From: Rhizobium sp. Q54
GTDB taxonomy: Bacteria > Pseudomonadota > Alphaproteobacteria > UBA2966 > CAIVPW01
Direction of reading: 5' to 3'
Assembly: GCA_945947575.1 (NCBI GenBank)
Contig: CAMEYM010000015.1
Location: 1 to 64,000 of the forward strand
DNA length: 64,000 nucleotides
Shown here one piece after another: positions 20,175 through 47,737 of this stretch; within the stretch, counting starts at the first letter, position 1, and each line of letters starts with the position of its first letter. The notes beneath the pieces were generated by a model. That model saw only the letters and a list, made by a program, of their open reading frames with translations, did no database searches and was not told where the DNA came from. Position numbers and translations under genes: made by a program.

Positions 20175-22454
20175 ATGCAACCCGTACCAGCCAGCAAGCG
20201 CGGCGGCGAATCCAGCGGACGCCTGAAGGAGGTCGAAACCCTCCTCACCATCTCGCGCATGGTCGCGGCGATGGAGACGGTGGACGAGGTGCTGCGCACT
20301 CTCGTCGAAATCGTCGCGCGCGAAACCGAGTCGGAGCGCGGCTCGCTGTTCCTCAACGATCCGACGACCGGCGAGCTCTACAGCCGCGTTGCCCTCGGCG
20401 ATCACAGCCGTGAAATCCGCATCCTCAACAACACCGGCATCGCCGGCCACGTCTTCACCACCGGCGAAGGCCTGCTGATCCACGAGCCATACAAGGATCC
20501 GCGCTTCAACGCCCAGGTCGACGAGCAGACCGGCTTCAAGACGCGCAACATCCTGTGCGCGCCGGTACGCACGGTGCGCGGCGAAATCATCGGCGTCGCC
20601 CAGGCCCTGAACAAGAAGAAGGGCAGGTTCAACAAGCGCGACATGGGCTTCATGGAAGCCATGACGACGCAGGCGGCGGTGGCGCTGCAAAGCACGCAGC
20701 TGGTCGAGAACGTCAAGCGCGAGCGCGCGCGCGAGATGCAGTTCCTCGACGTCGTGTCGGACGTCACCTCCGAGATCGACCTGTCCACCCTGCTGCAGAA
20801 GGTCATGTTCGAGGCGACGCGCATGCTCAAGGCCGAGCGCTCGACCTTGTTCATCAACGACGAGAAGACCAACGAGCTGTTCTCTCGCGTGGCCCAGGGC
20901 GACGCCGGCATCGGCGAAATCCGCCTTCCCAACCACCTCGGCATCGCCGGAGCTGTATTCAGCTCGGGCAAGTCGGTGAACATCCCGCACGCCTATGCCG
21001 ACCTGCGCTTCAATCCGAGCTTCGACAAGCGCACCGGCTATTTCACGCGCTCGATGCTGGCGGTTCCGGTCGTCAACAAGGACGGAAAGTGCATCGGCGT
21101 CACCCAGGTGCTGAACAAGCGCGGCGGGCCGTTCACGGACGAGGACGAGAGCCGCCTGAAGGCGTTCACCGCGCAGGTGTCGATCGCGCTCGAGAACGCC
21201 AAGCTCTTCGACGACGTCACCAACATGCGCAACTACAACCAGAGCATGCTCGAGTCGATGTCGAACGGCGTCATCACGATGGACGAGGAAGGCACCATCG
21301 TCACGTCGAACCACGCCGGCGTGCGCATCTTCAAGGCCGAGGAGACCGGCCTGGTCGGCAAGAAGGCCAAGGACTTCTTCGCCGGCGGCAACGCCTGGGT
21401 GCTCGAGACGATCACGCGCGTCAACCAGACCAAGGAACAGGTGGTGATGCTGGACGTCGACCTCGCCGTCGGCGACGGCAAGGTTTCCGCCGACCTCACG
21501 GTGCTGCCGCTCCTCAACACGTCGGGCCAGGCCAAGAAGCTCGGCACGCTGTTGATGATCGAAGACGTCTCCGACGCCAAGCGCATGAAATCGACGATGT
21601 CGCGCTACATCGATCCCAGCATCGCCGAGAAGCTGATGGCGGCCGGCCAGGACGTGATGGGCGGCAAGACGTCGGTCGCCACCGTGCTGTTCTCCGACAT
21701 CCGCAGCTTCACGACGCTGACCGAGGAGCTCGGGCCGCAAGGCACCGTGGCGATGCTGAACGAGTACTTCACCTTGATGGTCGATTGCATCGTCAAGGAG
21801 GAGGGCATGCTCGACAAGTTCATCGGCGACGCCGTGATGGCGGCGTTCGGTGTGCCGCTGCCCCACGATGACGACGAGGACCGCGCGGTTCGCTCGTCGA
21901 TCTCGATGCTGACGCAGCTCGATCAGTGGAACACGGTGCGCCACACCCAGGGCAAGAAGCCGATCCACATCGGCATCGGCCTCAACACCGACAACATCGT
22001 GTCGGGCAACATCGGCTCGCCCAAGCGCATGAACTACACGCTGATCGGCGACGGCGTGAACCTTGCCGCGCGCCTGGAAAGCGCCTGCAAGCAGTACCAC
22101 GCGAAGTTGCTGATCTCGGAGTACACCAAGGCCAAGCTCAAGGGCACCTACCGCATGCGCGAGGTGGACCATGTGGTGGTCAAGGGCAAGACCGAGCCGG
22201 TCGGCGTGTGGGAAGTGCTCGACTTCTACGGGCCGACGCAGTTCCCCAACCTCATGGACGTGGTGAACTACTTCCGCGAGGGCATCGCGCTCTATCGCGC
22301 CGGCAACTTCGACAAGGCGATCAAGAACTTCAACGACGCGCTGAAGGCCAACCCGAAGGACCACCTGTCGCAGACCTACATCGAGCGCTGCGAGTACCTC
22401 AAGGCCCACACGCCGCCGGATTGGAAGGGCGTGTGGATCATGAAGGAAAAATAG
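20175..22454 (+). CDS. Class III adenylate cyclase with tandem GAF and PAS sensory domains
   Basis: This is a 759-residue soluble signalling enzyme. Two GAF domains (about 20-185 and 195-350; RGSLFLND and RSTLFINDEKTNELFSR) are followed by a PAS-like segment (about 360-475) and a class III cyclase domain (about 495-670). The metal Asp residues are in LFSDIRSFT and FIGDAVMAAFG. The purine-contact Lys (MLDKFIGD) and Thr (NYTLIGDG), with NLAARLE, favour ATP over GTP. A TPR-like tail (residues 690-745) ends the protein. It probably makes cAMP in response to GAF ligands. The ATG lies one base after the coiled-coil gene. Confidence 0.92.
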   Translation: MQPVPASKRGGESSGRLKEVETLLTISRMVAAMETVDEVLRTLVEIVARETESERGSLFLNDPTTGELYSRVALGDHSREIRILNNTGIAGHVFTTGEGLLIHEPYKDPRFNAQVDEQTGFKTRNILCAPVRTVRGEIIGVAQALNKKKGRFNKRDMGFMEAMTTQAAVALQSTQLVENVKRERAREMQFLDVVSDVTSEIDLSTLLQKVMFEATRMLKAERSTLFINDEKTNELFSRVAQGDAGIGEIRLPNHLGIAGAVFSSGKSVNIPHAYADLRFNPSFDKRTGYFTRSMLAVPVVNKDGKCIGVTQVLNKRGGPFTDEDESRLKAFTAQVSIALENAKLFDDVTNMRNYNQSMLESMSNGVITMDEEGTIVTSNHAGVRIFKAEETGLVGKKAKDFFAGGNAWVLETITRVNQTKEQVVMLDVDLAVGDGKVSADLTVLPLLNTSGQAKKLGTLLMIEDVSDAKRMKSTMSRYIDPSIAEKLMAAGQDVMGGKTSVATVLFSDIRSFTTLTEELGPQGTVAMLNEYFTLMVDCIVKEEGMLDKFIGDAVMAAFGVPLPHDDDEDRAVRSSISMLTQLDQWNTVRHTQGKKPIHIGIGLNTDNIVSGNIGSPKRMNYTLIGDGVNLAARLESACKQYHAKLLISEYTKAKLKGTYRMREVDHVVVKGKTEPVGVWEVLDFYGPTQFPNLMDVVNYFREGIALYRAGNFDKAIKNFNDALKANPKDHLSQTYIERCEYLKAHTPPDWKGVWIMKEK

Positions 22455-39627: not shown

Positions 39628-40662
39628 CTAGAGGTCGAGCACGAGCCGCGGCGTCTGCGAGCGGCTGACGCAGGTGCACATCCGGTTGGCGGCGCGTTCG
39701 GCGTCGAGGAGGACGTTATCGCGGTGGTCGGGGGTGCCTTCGAGGACCTGCACCGCGCACGTGCCGCAGGTGCCGACCTTGCAGTCGTAGTCGGTCTTCA
39801 CACCGGCCTCGATGAGGGCGTCGAGGATCGAGGTCTTCGCGGCGACCTGCACGGTCTGGCCGGTGCTCTTGATCACGACCTCGACCGGACCGTCGCCCGG
39901 GCGCGGTTCGGGCTTCGTAAAGGCCTCGGAGTGCACGGTGCCGTCGGGCCAGCCGAACTCATGGGCGAGGGCATGCACCTCCTCGATCATCGAGTGGGGG
40001 CCGCACACGTAGACGTGGGTGTTGGGGCGCACGGTCTTCATCACGGCGCGCAAATCGAGGCCGCCGTTGGCCGGGTTGCGGCCGACGTACATCTTCGCTT
40101 TTTCCTTGAAGCCGTCGATTTGCGTGCGGAACGCCATGCGTTCCTTGGTGCGGCCGGTGTAGTGGACCTCGAACGACTTCGACGCGGCGTCGAGCTCGTA
40201 ACACATGGCGAGGATCGGGGCGATGCCGACGCCGCCGGCGATCAGGATCGAATGCTCGGCGTCGCGTAGCTCGAAGAAGTTCTTGGGCGGCGTGATCTCG
40301 ACGACGTAGCCGAGGCGAATGCTCTCGTGCAGGAAGATCGAGCCGCCGGTGCCTTCGTCTTCGTATTTGACGGCGATGTGGTAGACGAACGGCTGCTCGC
40401 CGGGCGGGCTGGCAATCGAATACGAGCGCCGCGCCCGCAGCTTGCCGGGCAGGATGACGACGACGTCGATGTGCGCGCCGGCCTTGAATTCCGGCAGGGG
40501 CGCGCCGGTCTCCGACACGAACTCGATGCCCTTGATGTCCTCCGCCTCGTGGCGGACGCGATGCACCTTGACCCGCAACAGCTCGGGCAGCGCCGGCTTC
40601 GCTTCCGGCGGCGGCGCGTCGGGCGCCTGGTTGGCATCGGCTGCGTTGTGTGTCTCCGCCAC
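39628..40662 (-). CDS. Ferredoxin reductase with C-terminal 2Fe-2S domain (class IA-type dioxygenase reductase)
   Basis: This protein passes electrons from NAD(P)H through FAD/FMN to a 2Fe-2S centre. The flavin site is RARRSYSIAS, NAD binding is AGGVGIAPILAM and VYVCGPHSMI, and the C-terminal ferredoxin motif is DYDCKVGTCGTCAVQV with the fourth Cys in RMCTCVSRS. The order flavin-NAD-2Fe-2S matches phthalate-dioxygenase-type reductases. GTG 40662 follows a strong CAGGAGG. No oxygenase is adjacent, so the redox partner is unknown. It is first in the minus-strand run leading to the regulator and cbb genes. Confidence 0.88.
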   Translation of the reverse strand: MAETHNAADANQAPDAPPPEAKPALPELLRVKVHRVRHEAEDIKGIEFVSETGAPLPEFKAGAHIDVVVILPGKLRARRSYSIASPPGEQPFVYHIAVKYEDEGTGGSIFLHESIRLGYVVEITPPKNFFELRDAEHSILIAGGVGIAPILAMCYELDAASKSFEVHYTGRTKERMAFRTQIDGFKEKAKMYVGRNPANGGLDLRAVMKTVRPNTHVYVCGPHSMIEEVHALAHEFGWPDGTVHSEAFTKPEPRPGDGPVEVVIKSTGQTVQVAAKTSILDALIEAGVKTDYDCKVGTCGTCAVQVLEGTPDHRDNVLLDAERAANRMCTCVSRSQTPRLVLDL

Positions 40663-40802
40663 GAGCGAATCCTCCTGCGGTGGTCGTGGGTCGTACCCTA
40701 TGTGCGAGCAACGAGATAGTCGGACAGCGGGCAAAACTCAACCGAGCGCCGCCTCTGCGATGCCACGGACGCGACAGCGCGCGCAGGATCGGGGTATGAT
40801 TT

Positions 40803-41210
40803 GTGCGCGGAGGGGATGGATGGGTCGCGAAATGCCGCGGCCCAGCAGGGGGTGCCTTGGCCGGGAAGGAAGTTCTCGAGCGCCAGGTCTTTGGGCCGGG
40901 CGACGTCATCTTTCGCGTTGGCGAGCCGCCGCGGGTCGCCTACCTGATCCAGGCCGGCGCCGTGAACATTACGGTGCCTCACGAGGACAAGGACAAGATC
41001 GTCGGCACGCTGGCGCCCGGCGACCTGTTCGGCGAGATGGCGCTGGTCGATTCCCAGCCGCGCTCGGCGACCGCCGTCGCGGCGGGACACACCACGTGCA
41101 TCGTCATCACACCCACCGACTTCATCCGCCGGCTGGAGAAGTCGGATCCCTTCGTGCGCGCCATGGTGCGCCTGCTTACCAAGCGCCTGCGCAAGATGAC
41201 CCCCAGCTGA
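40803..41210 (+). CDS. Stand-alone cyclic-nucleotide-binding domain protein
   Basis: This protein of up to 135 residues consists of one CRP-type cNMP-binding domain. The phosphate-binding cassette FGEMALVDSQPRSATA is complete (Glu and Arg for the ribose-phosphate). The beta-roll is marked by FGPGDVIFRVGEPPRVAYLIQAGAVNI. No DNA-binding or kinase domain follows; it ends at RKMTPS after the last helix. GTG 40803 gives the longest form, and TTG 40857 after AGGGGG is also likely. It is the first gene of a plus-strand cluster with an MBL hydrolase and an Nfn-like fusion protein. Confidence 0.87.
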   Translation: MRGGDGWVAKCRGPAGGALAGKEVLERQVFGPGDVIFRVGEPPRVAYLIQAGAVNITVPHEDKDKIVGTLAPGDLFGEMALVDSQPRSATAVAAGHTTCIVITPTDFIRRLEKSDPFVRAMVRLLTKRLRKMTPS

Positions 41211-41263
41211 ACGGGATTGGGAAGGCGCGTTCCCGCGGCCTTTTGAGCCAGTTCCGGCCGGTT

Positions 41264-41289
41264 TGCGAATAATTCGCAGTTGTTCGCAG
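41264..41289. promoter_or_regulatory. Palindrome with a helically phased half-site
   Basis: A perfect 7-1-7 palindrome TGCGAATAATTCGCA (41264-41278) is followed by a second TTCGCAG, so TTCGCAG occurs at 41273 and 41283, exactly ten bases apart. The element lies in the 210-base gap between the cNMP-binding gene and the MBL-hydrolase gene, about 130 bases before the latter. It looks like a regulator-binding operator. Confidence 0.5.
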
Positions 41290-41420
41290 CCCCCCGGGGC
41301 AGTATGAAAGGTGCGGCCGAACGCGTGCGGGGGCGCGGCGGACTCGGCTGTATGGCTTGTTTCCAGCCGATTCTTTGGCCCCCCCTTTGATTTGCCGGGG
41401 CGCGCTAACGAACCGCACGC

Positions 41421-42248
41421 ATGAGCATGATGATCAAGTTCTGGGGCGTGCGCGGGAGCATCGCTTGCCCGTCCCAGCAGCATTTGAAGTATGGCGGCAA
41501 CACGAGCTGCGTCGAGGTGATGATCGACGACCAGCCGGCCGCGATCCTCGATTGCGGCACCGGCATCCATGGCTTGGGCGCAGAGTTCCTGCGCCGTGAG
41601 ATCAAGCATGCAACCATCCTGATGTCCCACACACACTGGGACCACATCAACGGCTTCCCGTTCTTCGCACCGGTGTTCCGCAAGGATTGTTCGTTGGCCA
41701 TCTATGCCGGCCACTTGCATGAGCGCGGCGGCATCCAGCAGGTGCTCGCCGACCATCTCGAGCAGCCGCTGTTTCCCGTGCCGTTGGAACTGATGGGCGC
41801 GCGCAAGGACTTCAGCGACTTCCAGCCGGGCACCAGCTTCGACATCGGCAACCAGATCAAGGTGAAGACGACGAAGCTCAACCACCCGGGCGGCGCCACC
41901 GCCTACCGGCTGGAGCACAACGGCGCGGCGGTCTGCTACGTCACCGACACCGAGCATGTGCCGGGCAAGCCGGACCAGAACGTACTAGGGCTGATCGAGG
42001 GCGCCGACCTCGTCATCTACGACTGCACCTACACGGACGCCGAGTACCCGAAGTACGTCGGCTGGGGACATTCCACCTGGCAGGAGGGCGTGCGCCTCTG
42101 TCAGGCCGCCAACGCCAAGCAGCTGGCGATCTTCCACCACGACCCGGGCCACGACGACACGTTCATGATCCACCTCGAAGCCGAGGCGCGGCGGGTGTGG
42201 AACGGAACCATCGTAGCCCGCGAGCAGATGATCATCGCCGTCGGCTGA
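41421..42248 (+). CDS. MBL-fold metal hydrolase (PhnP-like group)
   Basis: This 275-residue metallo-beta-lactamase-fold phosphodiesterase-like hydrolase carries the motif SHTHWDHINGFPFF (HxHxDH) near residues 73-86. It also has KYGGNTSCVEV, YVTDTEH (metal Asp), YDCTYTDAEYPKYVGWGHSTWQEG and FHHDPGHDD. These fit the cyclic-phosphodiesterase/PhnP-like part of the superfamily rather than glyoxalase II. Given the neighbouring cNMP-binding protein, a nucleotide phosphodiester substrate is possible, but this is inference. It is preceded by a palindromic operator-like site and followed 80 bases later by the Nfn-like fusion gene. Confidence 0.85.
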   Translation: MSMMIKFWGVRGSIACPSQQHLKYGGNTSCVEVMIDDQPAAILDCGTGIHGLGAEFLRREIKHATILMSHTHWDHINGFPFFAPVFRKDCSLAIYAGHLHERGGIQQVLADHLEQPLFPVPLELMGARKDFSDFQPGTSFDIGNQIKVKTTKLNHPGGATAYRLEHNGAAVCYVTDTEHVPGKPDQNVLGLIEGADLVIYDCTYTDAEYPKYVGWGHSTWQEGVRLCQAANAKQLAIFHHDPGHDDTFMIHLEAEARRVWNGTIVAREQMIIAVG

Positions 42249-42328
42249 TCGTCGCCTCGGTTCCACACGCTCGACGCCGGCGCTCGACAGGCCTAAGTGA
42301 AGCGCCCAAGGAGGGCGTGCCCAAGATC

Positions 42329-45300
42329 ATGTTGTCGTTGGCCTTCGGCCTGAAATTCGAGGACCTCTACGACCGCGCCGGAGTTGAGCGCATCGACGGT
42401 GAGTTCGTGCGCTGGCTGGCGGCCGCCGAGGCCGCGCTGGCGGAGCGGCTGAAGGTGTCGCGCGCGGCGCCCGTGCTCGATCGCAAGGCGCACGCCGAGC
42501 TGATGCTGGCGATCGCGCCGCATCTCGACGATTTCGTCGCCAAATTGTTCGGAATCGAGGCTGAGGCGAAGAAGCTCGCCACAGAGATCAACGAACTCGC
42601 GCCGCTGTACGCGTGCAAGCGCCTGTTCGTGCAGCGCCGTGCGGTGAAGAAGTACGGCGACCAGGCCGCGTCGCTCGATGGTGCGGCGCTAGGCCGCCAG
42701 CTCGAGTCGATGCTGGAGCTGGCGATCCACGGAGCGGAGAGCGAGCTCGAGTTCGCGCGCGCCGTGAACACGATGCTCGAGAACGAGGCGGCGAACGCCG
42801 AGGGCCTCGAACTCGCGGGACGATACGCGGCGTGGGCGACGCTGACCGAAGCGGGCAAGCACCGTCATGCCGGCGGCGTGCTGTTCAAGGTGCCGGGCAA
42901 GGTCGAGCCCGAGCATCTGCTGCCGCTCGAGTCGCATCACCTGCCGCGCACCGGCAAGGACGTGCAGGCGTGGGCGCTGGGTGAGCATCACCTGCGCCGG
43001 CGCGAAGGGTTCGCGCTCACCGACAAGGGGCACGATCTCGAGCACGCGCTCGATCAGGCGCACTACTGCATCTTCTGCCACAACCAGGGCAAGGACAGCT
43101 GCTCGCGGGGCTTGAAGGACAAGCCTGCGGCGGGACAGACGACGGCGCCGTTCAAGAAAAGTCCGTTCGGCGTGACGCTGGCGGGTTGCCCGCTGGAGGA
43201 GCGCATCTCCGAGATGCACACGGCGAAGACCGAGGGTCATTCGTTGGCGGCGCTCTCCATCGTCACCATCGACAATCCGATGTGCGCCGGCACCGGTCAT
43301 CGCATCTGCAACGACTGCATGAAGGCCTGCATCTACCAGAAGCAGGAGCCGGTCGACATTCCGCAGGTCGAGACGCGCGTCCTGAAGGACGTGATCGAGC
43401 TCCCCTACGGCTTCGAGATCTATTCGCTGCTGACCCGCTGGACGCCGCTCGATCTGCACCGGCCGTTCCCGAAGGCGCACACCGGCAAGAAGGTGCTGGT
43501 CGCCGGGATGGGTCCGGCGGGCTTCACGCTCGCGCATCACCTGATGAACGACGGCCACACGGTGGCCGGCGTTGACGGCTTGAAGATCGAGCCGCTGGCG
43601 GCGGACTTGTCGGGCATCGACGCGCACGGCAGACGCGTGCCGTTCCGTCCCATCCGCGATGTGAACGAGCTCTATGAGCGCCTGGACGCGCGCGTCATGG
43701 CCGGCTTCGGTGGCGTCGCCGAGTACGGCATCACCGTGCGTTGGGACAAGAACTTCCTCAAGGTCATCCGGCTGCTGCTGGAGCGGCGCGCGGAGTTCGC
43801 GCTGTTCGGCGCGGTGCGCTTCGGCGGCACGGTGACCATGGACGAGGCATTCGCCATGGGCTTCGACCATGTCGCGCTGGCGATGGGCGCGGGGCGGCCG
43901 ACGGTGTTACCGCTGCCCAATGGTCTCGCGCGCGGCGTGCGCGCCGCGTCGGACTTCCTGATGGCGCTGCAGCTCACCGGCGCTGGTCGCACGGACTCGA
44001 TCGCCAACATGCAGCTGCGCCTGCCGGTAGTCGTGATCGGGGGCGGTCTCACCGCGGTCGACACCGCTACGGAGTCGCTCGCCTACTACCCGGTGCAGGT
44101 CGAGAAGTTCTTGGGCCGCTACGAGACGCTGGTGGCGGAGCGCGGCGACAAGGCCGTGCGCGCCAAGTGGGACGCAGAGGAAGCGGAGATCGCCGACGAA
44201 TTCTTGGCGCATGCGCGCTCCATCCGCGCCGAGCGCGCGCTCGCCGCGCGCGAGAAGCGGCCCGCGAAGGTGCGCGAGCTGCTGCAGTCGTGGGGCGGTG
44301 TCACCATTGCCTATCGCAAGCGGCTCATCGACGCACCGAGCTACACGCTCAACCACGAAGAGGTCGGCAAGGCGTTGGAGGAGGGGATCTTCTTCGCCGA
44401 AGGTCTGTCGCCGGTGTCCGTCGAGGTGGACGAGCGCGGTCACGCCAAGGCGATCCTGCTTTCGCGCCAGGCGCCGTCCCAGGATGGCGATGGCAAGTGG
44501 ATCACCTCGGAGACCGTCGAGCACTTGCCGGCGCGCAGTATCCTGATTGCCGCCGGCACCCAGCCCAACACCGTGCTGGCGCGCGAGGACAAGTCGTCGG
44601 TGACCGTGGACGGCCGCTACTTCCGCGCCGTGGACGAGCAAGGGCGGCCCGTGAAGCCCGAGCACGTGCGCAAGCCGCACGTGCCGCAGGTCCTCGCCAA
44701 CATCCGCTCGGACGGCCGCGCCATCAGCTTCTTTGGCGACTTGCACCCGTCGTTCGCGGGCAACGTCGTCGGCGCCATGGCGAGCGCCAAGCAAGGATTC
44801 CCGGTCGTCTCGACCATACTGGCGAAGCATGCGCCGTCCTCAAAGGACGCAGCAGCCGGTTTCTTTGCGCGCCTCAATGATGCGTGGCGCGCAACGGTGC
44901 ATGACGTCATCCGCCTGACGCCGACGATCATCGAGGTCGTCGTGCGTGCGCCGGCTGCGGCGCGCGCCTTCAATCCCGGCCAGTTCTATCGCTTGCAGAA
45001 CTTCGAGGTGCTCGCGCCAAAGGCAAGCGGTACGACGCTGGCGATGGAAGGTCTCGCGCTGACCGGCGCGTGGGTCGATCGCGACAAGGGACTCATCGGA
45101 CTGATCGTGCTCGAGATGGGCGGCTCGTCCGACATCTGCGCGCTGATGAAGAAGGGCGAGCCGTGCGTGCTGATGGGCCCGACCGGAGAACCGACCACCA
45201 TCGCCAAAGGCGAGACAGTGCTGCTGGCCGGTGGCGGCCTCGGCAACGCCGTTCTGTTCTCGATCGGCCGCGCCTATCGCGACGCGGGATCGAAGGTTCT

Positions 45301-45877
45301 GTACTTCGCCGGCTACCGCAATGCCATCGACCGCTACCACGTCGCCGACATCGAAGCGGCGGCGGACACCATCATCTGGTGCGTCGACCAGGGCGCGGCG
45401 TTCAAGCCGGGACGCCCGGGCGACTTCACCTTCGTCGGCAACATCGTGCAGGCGATGGTGGCCTACGCCGAGGGCAAGCTCGGCCCAGAATCCCTTAGGC
45501 CGCCGATCGCCCTATCGTCAGTGGATCGCATCATCACGATCGGCTCGGACCGCATGATGGCGGCGGTGGGGGCGGCGCGGCATGGGGTGCTGAAGCCGTT
45601 CCTGAATCCCGATCACGTCGCGATTGCCAGCATCAATTCGCCCATGCAGTGCATGATGAAAGAGATCTGCGCGCAGTGCTTGCAGCCTCATACCGACCCG
45701 GACACGGGCGAGACGACGGCAGTGTTCTCCTGCTTCAACCAGGACCAGCTCCTGGACCACGTTGAATTCCCGGCGCTGGCCCAGCGTTTGCGCCAGAATT
45801 CGGTGCAGGAGAAGCTGACGGCACAATGGATCGACCGGTGCCTGGTCGAACTCCAGGTTCGCCCAAAGGTTGCGTAA
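42329..45877 (+). CDS. 1182-residue fused NfnB-NfnA-like flavoprotein with a new N-terminal domain
   Basis: Residues 1-240 form a helical domain I do not recognise. A GltD/NfnB-like part follows: Cys-rich cluster region (HYCIFCHNQGKDSC near 245-257; NPMCAGTGHRICNDCMKAC near 317-334), a Rossmann FAD site (VLVAGMGPAGF, about 390) and a second NAD(P) site (VVVIGGGLTAVDTATESL, about 567). From about 858 a PyrK/NfnA-like reductase begins: FNPGQFYRLQNFE, LLAGGGLGNAVLF (about 965) and a terminal Cys set (CMMKEICAQC, then FSC, about 1107-1134). This suggests a bifurcating or transhydrogenase-like enzyme in one chain. AAGGAGG lies 14 bases before ATG 42329; GTG 42317 is an alternative. Confidence 0.85.
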   Translation: MLSLAFGLKFEDLYDRAGVERIDGEFVRWLAAAEAALAERLKVSRAAPVLDRKAHAELMLAIAPHLDDFVAKLFGIEAEAKKLATEINELAPLYACKRLFVQRRAVKKYGDQAASLDGAALGRQLESMLELAIHGAESELEFARAVNTMLENEAANAEGLELAGRYAAWATLTEAGKHRHAGGVLFKVPGKVEPEHLLPLESHHLPRTGKDVQAWALGEHHLRRREGFALTDKGHDLEHALDQAHYCIFCHNQGKDSCSRGLKDKPAAGQTTAPFKKSPFGVTLAGCPLEERISEMHTAKTEGHSLAALSIVTIDNPMCAGTGHRICNDCMKACIYQKQEPVDIPQVETRVLKDVIELPYGFEIYSLLTRWTPLDLHRPFPKAHTGKKVLVAGMGPAGFTLAHHLMNDGHTVAGVDGLKIEPLAADLSGIDAHGRRVPFRPIRDVNELYERLDARVMAGFGGVAEYGITVRWDKNFLKVIRLLLERRAEFALFGAVRFGGTVTMDEAFAMGFDHVALAMGAGRPTVLPLPNGLARGVRAASDFLMALQLTGAGRTDSIANMQLRLPVVVIGGGLTAVDTATESLAYYPVQVEKFLGRYETLVAERGDKAVRAKWDAEEAEIADEFLAHARSIRAERALAAREKRPAKVRELLQSWGGVTIAYRKRLIDAPSYTLNHEEVGKALEEGIFFAEGLSPVSVEVDERGHAKAILLSRQAPSQDGDGKWITSETVEHLPARSILIAAGTQPNTVLAREDKSSVTVDGRYFRAVDEQGRPVKPEHVRKPHVPQVLANIRSDGRAISFFGDLHPSFAGNVVGAMASAKQGFPVVSTILAKHAPSSKDAAAGFFARLNDAWRATVHDVIRLTPTIIEVVVRAPAAARAFNPGQFYRLQNFEVLAPKASGTTLAMEGLALTGAWVDRDKGLIGLIVLEMGGSSDICALMKKGEPCVLMGPTGEPTTIAKGETVLLAGGGLGNAVLFSIGRAYRDAGSKVLYFAGYRNAIDRYHVADIEAAADTIIWCVDQGAAFKPGRPGDFTFVGNIVQAMVAYAEGKLGPESLRPPIALSSVDRIITIGSDRMMAAVGAARHGVLKPFLNPDHVAIASINSPMQCMMKEICAQCLQPHTDPDTGETTAVFSCFNQDQLLDHVEFPALAQRLRQNSVQEKLTAQWIDRCLVELQVRPKVA

Positions 45878-45886
45878 GGTTAACGG

Positions 45887-45934
45887 GGAATCCTGCCACA
45901 AAGGATGAACTGGACCCTTGGAGACCAGGATTCC
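45887..45934. repeat. Nine-base inverted repeat before the CheY-like gene
   Basis: GGAATCCTG (45887-45895) and its exact complement CAGGATTCC (45926-45934) flank 30 bases in the 84-base gap between the fusion flavoprotein and the CheY-like gene. They could act as a long-loop attenuator or as a spaced operator. Confidence 0.4.
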
Positions 45935-45961
45935 GGCCTGTTAGGGTAGGGCCGGCGACTT

Positions 45962-46510
45962 ATGGCGAACTACAGCTTCGATATGTTCAACGTCCTCGTT
46001 GTTGAGGACAACCGGTACATGCGCAGCATGCTGCGCACGCTGCTGTATGCCATTGGCGTCGGCAACGTGCTGACAACGTCGGATGGCGGCGAGGCCATCG
46101 AGTTGTTGCGGAAGATCAAGGAGGCACCGGCTGCGGCCGGCGTCTCGTCAATCGACATCATCTTCTCCAACTGGCAGATGGAACCGGTCGATGGAACCAT
46201 GCTGCTGAAGTGGGTACGCCGCTCGAAGGAATCACCGGATCGCTTCGTGCCCTTCATCATGGTGTCGGGCTTCGCGGATTTCCAACGGGTCAGCGTGTGC
46301 CGCGATCTCGGAGTCACGGAATTCCTCGCCAAGCCATACTCGGTAGACAGCTTGCTCGGTCGCTTGACGGGACTCGTCGAGCGTCCACGCCAGTTCGTGC
46401 TCACCGAAAACTATTTCGGTCCGGATCGTCGCCGCCGTCCTTCGCCGCAAGCGCTGGAACGCCGCGTGATGAAAGAGTCGGAGATGGAAATCATCTATGA
46501 CGACCGCTGA
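45962..46510 (+). CDS. CheY-like protein with Asn at the phospho-acceptor site
   Basis: This is a single receiver domain with a C-terminal tail of about 50 residues. The fold is clear: VLVVEDNRYMRSMLRTLL (acidic Glu-Asp), FIMVSGFAD (Ser), EFLAKPYS (Lys). The phospho-acceptor position is Asn 70 (IIFSNWQMEPVDG; codon AAC), so normal aspartyl phosphorylation is impossible. The tail contains a basic patch (GPDRRRRPSPQALERR). It overlaps the next gene, which has an HPt-like motif, by 14 bases. It follows the Nfn-like fusion gene by 84 bases in the same direction. Confidence 0.9.
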   Translation: MANYSFDMFNVLVVEDNRYMRSMLRTLLYAIGVGNVLTTSDGGEAIELLRKIKEAPAAAGVSSIDIIFSNWQMEPVDGTMLLKWVRRSKESPDRFVPFIMVSGFADFQRVSVCRDLGVTEFLAKPYSVDSLLGRLTGLVERPRQFVLTENYFGPDRRRRPSPQALERRVMKESEMEIIYDDR

Positions 46511-47126
46511 GCAGACCGCGCAAGCCACCGGCGAGACGGAAACCGATGCGAAGCGCATCATCAAGGTGCGCCTCTTCCGCCTGCGCAACAAACTGAAGGA
46601 AAAGGCCGGCGTTGGCCGCGCCGGCGTCGGCGACAGCACCATCGCGACGGAAGCCTTGGAGAAGGCTCTGTCCGAGATGAAGAAGTCGCAGGACGAGTAT
46701 CCGGACTGGGTGCGCGCCACGCTCACGGAGCTGGCGGATGACCTGAAGGCCGCGACCGATGGCATCGACGAGGAGCGCCGCAAACGCTTCCGCCACATCA
46801 GCGCGCTGGCGCACGAACTCAAAGGCCAGGGCGGCACGTTCGGGTATCCCTTGATCTCGGTGTTCGGCAAGTCGCTGAACGAACTCACCGATCGTGAGGC
46901 AAACATCACCGACAGCCATCTCGAGATCGTCAAGGCGCACATAGACGTGATGCGCGCGGTCATCAAGGACCGCATTGCCGGCGACGGCGGTGACGTCGGC
47001 CGGGAGCTGATCGCCGTCCTCGACCGCGCCATTAAGAAGCACACCGTGGCACCACCGCCGCGCCCGACAGCGCAGAGCAACCGCATTCCCCTCAAGGCCA
47101 CCGTCACGCGGCCAACCAAGAAGTAG
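46497..47126 (+). CDS. HPt-like helical protein
   Basis: This 209-residue helical protein contains ISALAHELKGQGGTFGYP. The His 106 and the following x-L-K-G resemble the phospho-His motif of HPt domains (AHxLKG), with helices before and after it. The N-terminal 60 residues are charged and the C-terminal 35 are basic and unstructured (APPPRPTAQSNRIPLKATVTRPTKK). The start overlaps the CheY-like gene by 14 bases, so the two are translationally coupled. With a receiver partner that cannot be phosphorylated, it may accept phosphate from elsewhere. Confidence 0.7.
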   Translation: MTTAEQTAQATGETETDAKRIIKVRLFRLRNKLKEKAGVGRAGVGDSTIATEALEKALSEMKKSQDEYPDWVRATLTELADDLKAATDGIDEERRKRFRHISALAHELKGQGGTFGYPLISVFGKSLNELTDREANITDSHLEIVKAHIDVMRAVIKDRIAGDGGDVGRELIAVLDRAIKKHTVAPPPRPTAQSNRIPLKATVTRPTKK

Positions 47127-47131
47127 TCGCC

Positions 47132-47737
47132 ATGGCCAAGCGCATCGTCGTCGGCATCTCGGGCGCTTCGGGCATCGTCTACGGCATCCGTACGCTAGAG
47201 GCTCTGCGCGACCTTGGCCACGAGACGCATCTCGTCATGACGCGCTCCGCCGAGCAGACCCTCGCCATCGAGACCAAGCGCAAGATTGCCGAGGTCCAGG
47301 CGCTCGCCCACACGGTGCACACGGTGACCGACATCGGCGCGGCGCCTTCGTCGGGCTCGTTCGCGACCGACGGCATGGTGGTCGCGCCGTGCTCGATCCG
47401 CAGCCTGTCCGAGATCGCCACGGGCGTAACCTCGAACCTGCTGACCCGGGCCGCGGACGTCACCCTGAAGGAGCGCCGCCGCCTGGTGCTGCTGGTGCGC
47501 GAGACGCCCCTGCATACCGGTCATCTGCGCACCATGACGCAGGCCTCCGAGCTCGGCGCCGTGATCTTCCCCCCGGTGCCGGCGTTCTACGGCTGGCCGC
47601 AGAGCGTCGAGGACATCGTCAACCATACGGTCGGCCGCGTGCTCGACCTGTTCGGCATCGAAAACCTGCTGGCGCCCCGCTGGGGCGCCGCGCCCGAGGA
47701 CGGAGGAAAGGCAGTGCGCGCCTTCCCGCGCCGATGA
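47132..47737 (+). CDS. ubiX: UbiX-family flavin prenyltransferase
   Basis: This enzyme attaches a dimethylallyl group to FMN to make prenyl-FMN, the cofactor of UbiD decarboxylases. Motifs are VVGISGASGIVYGIRTLEAL, VVAPCSIRSLSEIATGV (phosphate and prenyl site), RRLVLLVRETPLHTGHLRTM and the C-terminal NHTVGRVLDLFGIE. Its length of 201 residues is normal. No ubiD-like gene is adjacent. It starts five bases after the HPt-like gene, and its stop overlaps the Sel1-protein start (ATGA). Confidence 0.93.
   Translation: MAKRIVVGISGASGIVYGIRTLEALRDLGHETHLVMTRSAEQTLAIETKRKIAEVQALAHTVHTVTDIGAAPSSGSFATDGMVVAPCSIRSLSEIATGVTSNLLTRAADVTLKERRRLVLLVRETPLHTGHLRTMTQASELGAVIFPPVPAFYGWPQSVEDIVNHTVGRVLDLFGIENLLAPRWGAAPEDGGKAVRAFPRR

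Follow-up and report, generated by a model that had tools for sequence, protein, structure and literature searches.

The window analysed here is a stretch of 64,000 nucleotides from contig CAMEYM010000015.1 of Rhizobium sp. Q54 (GenBank assembly GCA_945947575.1; 2.49 Mb, 40 contigs, 95.67% complete). It carries a gene cluster in which a stand-alone cyclic nucleotide monophosphate (cNMP)-binding domain protein, a metallo-β-lactamase (MBL)-fold hydrolase, a fused Nfn-like flavoprotein, a CheY-like receiver and a histidine phosphotransfer (HPt) protein follow one another. An earlier sequence-only reading had described these five plus-strand genes as one redox-signalling unit. All five open reading frames (ORFs) were confirmed in place and in one direction, the domains being backed by Pfam and the Nfn part by PDB chains, and UbiX was added as a sixth gene (Table 1). 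Judged from the sequences, the receiver–HPt pair is the lasting unit and the heart of the cluster.

Table 1. Genes of the cluster, with positions in the window and supporting matches
Gene product	Position	Strand	Basis
Stand-alone cNMP-binding domain protein, 135 residues	40803..41210	+	PF00027, 77 bits (cut-off 27.5); start uncertain
MBL-fold hydrolase, 275 residues, weakly RNase Z-like	41421..42248	+	PF12706 Lactamase_B_2, 75 bits
Fused Nfn-like flavoprotein, 1182 residues, NfnB-like then NfnA-like	42329..45877	+	NfnI chain matches (5jca)
CheY-like receiver, Asn70 at phospho site, C-terminal YFGPDRR tail (residues 151-157)	45962..46510	+	PF00072, 57.7 bits (cut-off 30.2)
HPt protein, 209 residues, His106, predicted helical core 51-183	46497..47126	+	PF01627, 26.1 bits (cut-off 24.6)
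UbiX flavin prenyltransferase	47132..47737	+	NCBIfam PRK06029, 262 bits (cut-off 188)

The gaps between the sensor and hydrolase, hydrolase and Nfn, and Nfn and receiver genes are 210, 80 and 84 bases, respectively. The receiver and HPt genes overlap by 14 bases, and with a Pfam Hpt match above the cut-off and His106 in place the overlapping HPt-like gene of the sequence-only reading holds. UbiX starts 5 bases past the HPt gene and belongs to the conserved block. Upstream of the Nfn-like gene the reading frame stays open as far as a GTG at 42197. The sensor may be transcribed apart, because a weak terminator-like stem (41353-41369; four such sites in the region, 4.3 expected) lies between its gene and that of the hydrolase.

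Relatives of the receiver were sought by scanning genome contigs with 12 Asn-type queries. 136 were found, the best 80 of which are the named loci; the share of Asn among these is biased by the Asn-type query. An HPt gene comes right after the receiver gene in 80/80 named loci (in a few only a partial one), which bears out the pairing proposed earlier. Two overlapping sets (40 + 80) gave 120 receiver rows, containing 109 different sequences, with Asn at the phospho site in 80, Asp in 38, Glu in one and Ala in one. Receiver and HPt are fused in 24 of the 38 Asp-type rows and in 0 of the 80 Asn-type rows, and searches with either protein found the two adjacent in many genomes without Nfn.

The Asn-type receiver was correctly recognized in the sequence-only reading: N70 at the phospho site is invariant in 12 aligned Asn-type receivers, as are R114, R143 and PDRR (154-157). 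Arg114, which sits ten residues ahead of the conserved Lys124, and Arg143 are each present in 120/120 rows. The tail motif [YF]xGP[DE][RK]R was found in 119/120 rows (in L180 Glu replaces Gly), and it is exact, as YFGPDRR, in the window receiver. On the careful receiver tree the Asp/Asn trait changes twice, interpretable as Asn being gained and then reversed in eight Emcibacter-type rows. A single origin of Asn is not firm, because masking that column in a quick tree gives four changes and moves one long-branch pair. As far as the alignments indicate, the Asn marks a subfamily.

In the excerpted account of Nesper and colleagues (PMC5677366), Cle proteins for the most part consist of a single receiver (91% of 302 hits), with an arginine in α4 and a C-terminal arginine-rich region, a tandem [YF]xGP[DE][RK]R flanked by Arg and Asp. 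According to the same excerpt, they are switched by binding of cyclic diguanosine monophosphate (c-di-GMP), not by phosphorylation, and the flagellar switch is where CleA and CleD act (PMC5677366). By analogy, the window receiver is probably switched by c-di-GMP at its arginine-rich tail; the genome carries five GGDEF matches and FliM. The tail makes c-di-GMP a likelier input than the flavoprotein state that the receiver had been proposed to report. A PDB search with the receiver returned CheY, SLN1 and other receivers and no Cle chain, an absence that is uninformative. The receiver is classed, on its motifs, as Cle-like only, the second half of the tandem motif being incomplete.

Gene neighbours of the receiver–HPt loci were taken from a simple ORF picker, with some genes missed or mis-started. 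The domain label of each neighbour group rests on one representative, the canonical Hpt group included; the representatives matched POR, TPP_enzyme_C, Pyr_redox_2, His_Phos_1, Hpt, Flagellin, FlaG, FlbT and FlaF. The names CoxE-like, MoxR, TRAP, hydantoinase, FprA, KorAB (with its 2-oxoglutarate specificity), SixA and MarR are presumed, in part assigned by eye. Genes grouped with the flagellin (11), FlaG (11), FlbT (7) and FlaF (5) representatives were found within 9 kb of the pair, counted over the 80 loci; flagellar genes occur in this way at some loci of Kordiimonas and Emcibacter type. In 19/80 loci (L218-L255, mostly Kordiimonas-type) the Asn receiver is preceded, within 0.8 kb on its 5′ side, by a gene of roughly 119 residues grouped with a canonical Hpt. 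At five loci (L161, L162, L228, L247 and L262; f43 and Sneathiella-type), MBL, histidine-phosphatase-superfamily and MarR-like genes precede receiver and HPt; a histidine phosphatase beside an HPt is suggestive.

The model of the HPt protein (mean pLDDT 76, core about 90) has its best PDB matches in CheA P1 domains. Five of the 11 highest-ranking matches carry the name CheA P1, and another two belong to CheA-type chemotaxis complexes. The comparison with 3kyi_A gave Z 14.5 and a root-mean-square deviation of 3.1 over 121 aligned positions, to be read in the light of the high scores that helical models reach by chance. His106 is invariant in 47 aligned HPts; over the 120 rows it is kept in 110, replaced in eight and missing in two that are truncated. 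An HPt that works in phosphotransfer for another receiver would also carry such a histidine, and the Asn receiver would then be a competing decoy that modulates a phosphorelay, not a c-di-GMP effector. The histidine-phosphatase-superfamily gene at the f43 and Sneathiella-type loci and the canonical-Hpt-group gene (one representative tested) point in the same direction; the eight replacements, the two truncated rows that lack the histidine and the arginine-rich tail kept in all rows but one speak against it, and we regard a decoy role as rather unlikely.

Conservation of the gene order was assessed in a class sample of 240 alphaproteobacterial genomes and in the eight available genomes, from four genera, of the window's family (f1). 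The order sensor, hydrolase, Nfn, receiver, HPt, UbiX is kept in 8/8 of the family genomes. In G240 (L152 / L196) the sensor and hydrolase genes are in pieces and the HPt gene is partial, with Nfn, receiver and UbiX whole, which suggests either assembly error or decay. A divergent gene adjoining the sensor gene (39628-40734, minus strand), which by eye we take to be reductase-like and which ends in a 2Fe-2S-like motif, is kept in seven of the eight genomes; the contig of the eighth ends there.

The Nfn-like protein has some match in 104/240 class genomes and a strong match (E <= 1e-69) in 57. Nfn loci were obtained from 54 of the 56 other strong-match genomes, one of them belonging to the same family and carrying the companion genes. 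At the 53 loci outside the family, several of which are short or cut by a contig end, hydrolase, receiver, HPt and UbiX were found beside Nfn in 0/53 at E 1e-4, and only L038 has a cNMP match (weak, 32 bits, 1.7 kb away). A five-gene system conserved across distant genera was rejected on this absence of the companions at 53/53 loci. The succession of sensor, fusion protein and receiver, whose conservation in distant genera the sequence-only reading had proposed as a check, thus holds inside one family only, and of the claimed single unit the conserved order within the family stands, the full set not having been seen outside it.

A profile of 23 orthologues of the flavoprotein matches NfnI (5jca), with the L chain at profile positions 448-571 and the S chain at 831-1135. 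Cys247, 250, 258, 287, 327, 330 and 334 and Cys1108, 1114, 1117 and 1135 are invariant in these orthologues. The protein consists of GltD-like and NfnA-like parts; Pfam gave Pyr_redox_2 at 46 bits and Fer4_20 below threshold, and the best NCBIfam model is PRK06567 (727 bits, the curated cut-off of 1072 not being reached). The N-terminal ~230 residues have no PDB match by sequence, and no sensory domain was matched in the Pfam scan. A structure model built from six close sequences (pLDDT 44) was left unused. The excerpted text of Liang and colleagues (PMC6405883) places 'Pattern C' fused Nfn in Alphaproteobacteria and describes the fused kinds as uncharacterised. By its sequence the window's flavoprotein fits this known but unstudied kind. 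It would balance NADH, NADPH and ferredoxin, with bifurcation as a predicted activity.

Other ferredoxin enzymes were found in the same setting in three other families. The order in f27 and f31 is MBL, FprA-type reductase, KorA, KorB, receiver, HPt, and UbiX follows the HPt gene in both f27 genomes. In f121 the order in G224 is MBL, KorA, KorB, FprA, receiver, HPt; G120 has MBL with KorA, KorB and FprA and no receiver in the stretch covered. A histidine-phosphatase-type gene stands between MBL and KorA, KorB, FprA, receiver, HPt in L238 (Minwuiaceae), and in G067 KorB and FprA are 5 kb away from the receiver–HPt pair. Nfn in the window's family takes the place held by KorAB/FprA between MBL and receiver–HPt in f27, f31 and f121. 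On the 5′ side of the pair, at most 1.5 kb away, Nfn or Kor/Fpr genes were found in 13/64 Asn/Ala-type loci and 0/16 Asp-type loci (4/80 named loci are without any 5′ gene). From the association of flavoprotein and receiver proposed earlier, it stands that a ferredoxin/NAD(P)H enzyme adjoins the pair in several families; the enzyme itself differs. The redox link is genuine in certain branches without being general, because other loci carry a hydantoinase-like, Hpt or MarR-like gene 5′ of the pair.

At L209 and L215, two additional Asn/Ala-type loci beyond the 13, a divergent ferredoxin-reductase-type gene, related to a gene with Pyr_redox_2 plus Reductase_C, stands beside the Asn receiver.

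On the receiver tree the redox-neighbour trait requires five changes, against at least 12 in 300 shuffles. A clade of 14 receivers including that of the window is wholly redox-linked (95/80, careful tree); the masked quick tree keeps 11 of the 14 together, the f1 plus f31 part (97). L155 (G245) of the window's family groups with f31 (92/79, careful receiver tree), and the family rows are not a clade. In the hydrolase tree the window's family is placed with Sneathiella relatives, not with the KorAB-linked ones. A single inherited block is disfavoured because this tree is discordant with the receiver tree. An in-place swap of KorAB-FprA for Nfn within one inherited block, which the receiver tree and the order of the genes suggest, has the hydrolase tree contrary to it and was not retained.

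A housekeeping Nfn, with MBL and UbiX, might instead be unrelated to a portable Cle-like receiver–HPt pair, their nearness reflecting synteny and not coupling. We give this reading somewhat less than an even chance. It agrees with the Nfn genes that lack hydrolase, receiver and HPt at all 53 other loci, with the widely varying 5′ neighbours of the pair, with the discordant hydrolase tree and with the divergent reductase-like gene, whose likewise frequent retention (7/8) makes part of the order family synteny. Against it stand the presence of two different ferredoxin/NADP enzyme sets in the same MBL-to-receiver place (f1, f27, f31 and f121) and the union of the receivers of these four families in the clade of 14, of which only the f1 plus f31 part survives masking.

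Fused Nfn and KorAB come close to mutual exclusion across the class sample. KorA matches (E up to 1e-60) were found in 55/240 genomes, and KorA together with a strong Nfn match in 2/240, one of the two through a KorA match of 37%, where about 13 are expected by chance. With ancestry uncorrected, Fisher's test gave p 2e-6 by genome (the weak KorA match left out) and p 9e-4 by family (two families with both, 153 families assumed as the highest number). Among the 15 genomes of the window's order, 11 have Nfn, five KorA (at least 57% identity) and one both. This near exclusion is a hint at the role of Pattern C Nfn.

The hydrolase carries an HxHxDH-type motif (HTHWDH) and gave weak RNase Z matches. 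It scored 50.1 bits against NF041851, a cyclic-nucleotide-degrading phosphodiesterase model, and did not reach the cut-off of 400. Relatives of ~60-65% identity precede FprA/KorAB, or a histidine-phosphatase gene, in other families, and a clear cNMP gene within 1.5 kb was found for 0/28 close relatives outside the family (best 33 bits). There is thus little support for the MBL protein as a cNMP phosphodiesterase, or for the earlier suggestion that it turns over the ligand of the sensor.

The PDB relatives of the sensor are PKA/PKG/CRP-type domains. Nine class III adenylate/guanylate cyclase matches were found in the genome, one of them inside the window at 21675-22202 (plus strand). These make a cNMP ligand plausible and, with the order conserved in all eight family genomes and G194 (L169), a genome of the same taxonomic order in which the hydrolase gene has a cNMP gene (107 bits) 3 kb away, they speak for the model in which the flavoprotein senses redox state, receiver and HPt report it and the MBL enzyme degrades a cNMP ligand. 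The order was not found at the 53 loci outside the family, the flavoprotein matched no sensory domain and the hydrolase is far under the phosphodiesterase cut-off, all of which run counter to that model, and we consider it very improbable.

From the domains, the conserved residues, the gene order, the fusion in relatives and the GGDEF and FliM genes we infer that the receiver is a Cle-like effector whose own partner is a CheA-P1-like HPt, the two probably being made together with a fused Nfn so that motility and redox supply are set together. We hold this explanation to have an even chance of being correct. The receiver, lacking the usual phospho-acceptor (Asp to Asn), would be switched by c-di-GMP on its arginine-rich tail, as in the Cle proteins of Caulobacter, and in the bound form would act on the flagellar switch. 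The CheA-P1-like HPt would be its fixed partner, control running in one of two directions: the receiver, once bound to c-di-GMP, might occupy the HPt and silence it, or the HPt might gate the receiver. The fused Nfn of the window's family is probably co-produced with the pair, by co-transcription, and motility control and redox supply would therefore be set together. The gene arrangement suggests a link between the energy state of the cell and swimming.

Several observations weigh against this explanation. The second ARR half of the tail is reduced to LERR in the window receiver, and the full tandem motif was found in 0/17 and 5/63 Asn-type rows. The likening of Arg114 to the α4 Arg of Cle proteins is tentative. 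Four of the top 11 matches of the HPt model are designed bundles (Z up to 13.7), and Foldseek alone gave none under E 0.001, the first being HptB at 0.062. A histidine invariant in all 47 aligned HPts is unneeded in a purely structural partner. The 5′ neighbour of the pair varies (hydantoinase-like, second Hpt, MarR-like), and a place beside redox genes may be just one of several where the pair has landed; the placement of the hydrolase in its tree counts on the same side. The Nfn-to-pair link is a fair hypothesis, supported in part by gene order, with one tree contrary.

An alphaproteobacterial module spanning the class is conceivable but unlikely: a phosphorylation-dead, c-di-GMP-gated CheY and a CheA-P1-like HPt would stand behind whichever ferredoxin enzyme the lineage has (KorAB-FprA or fused Nfn) and couple ferredoxin/NADP(H) supply to swimming. 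If true, such a module would serve energy taxis as an output that has neither a chemoreceptor nor a kinase core of its own, with fused Nfn as a functional stand-in for KorAB-FprA.

A large Cle-like subfamily with paired or fused HPt and a fixed Asn would show that a phosphorelay part was recruited into c-di-GMP signalling. Among the top matches in the open literature there was no title on the pairing of Cle-like receivers with HPt, nor on that of KorAB with receivers or taxis.

The nearest known systems are similar in part. CleA-CleE of Caulobacter crescentus, as excerpted (PMC5677366), share with the window receiver the receiver fold, an arginine-rich tail starting with [YF]xGP[DE][RK]R, a flanking upstream Arg, a conserved receiver Arg and a dispensable acceptor residue; the window receiver differs in its Asn, in its incomplete second motif half and in its adjacent HPt, which is fused in relatives and of which the excerpted account makes no mention. 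With CheA P1 (3kyi, 1i5n, 1tqg, 2ld6) the HPt protein has in common a predicted helical bundle, with His106 on the second of the model's long helices, but it is stand-alone (or fused to the receiver in relatives) and has no kinase core. The flavoprotein is like Pattern C Nfn as excerpted (PMC6405883) and PRK06567 in having the NfnB part first and NfnA C-terminal, in being ~200 residues longer and in its occurrence in Alphaproteobacteria, although it lies under the PRK06567 cut-off. KorAB with the FprA-type ferredoxin:NADP reductase (f27, f31 and f121) occupies the same place and by family name performs ferredoxin/NADP chemistry; KorAB belongs to another family, and the reductase has only Pyr_redox_2 in common with the Nfn-like protein.

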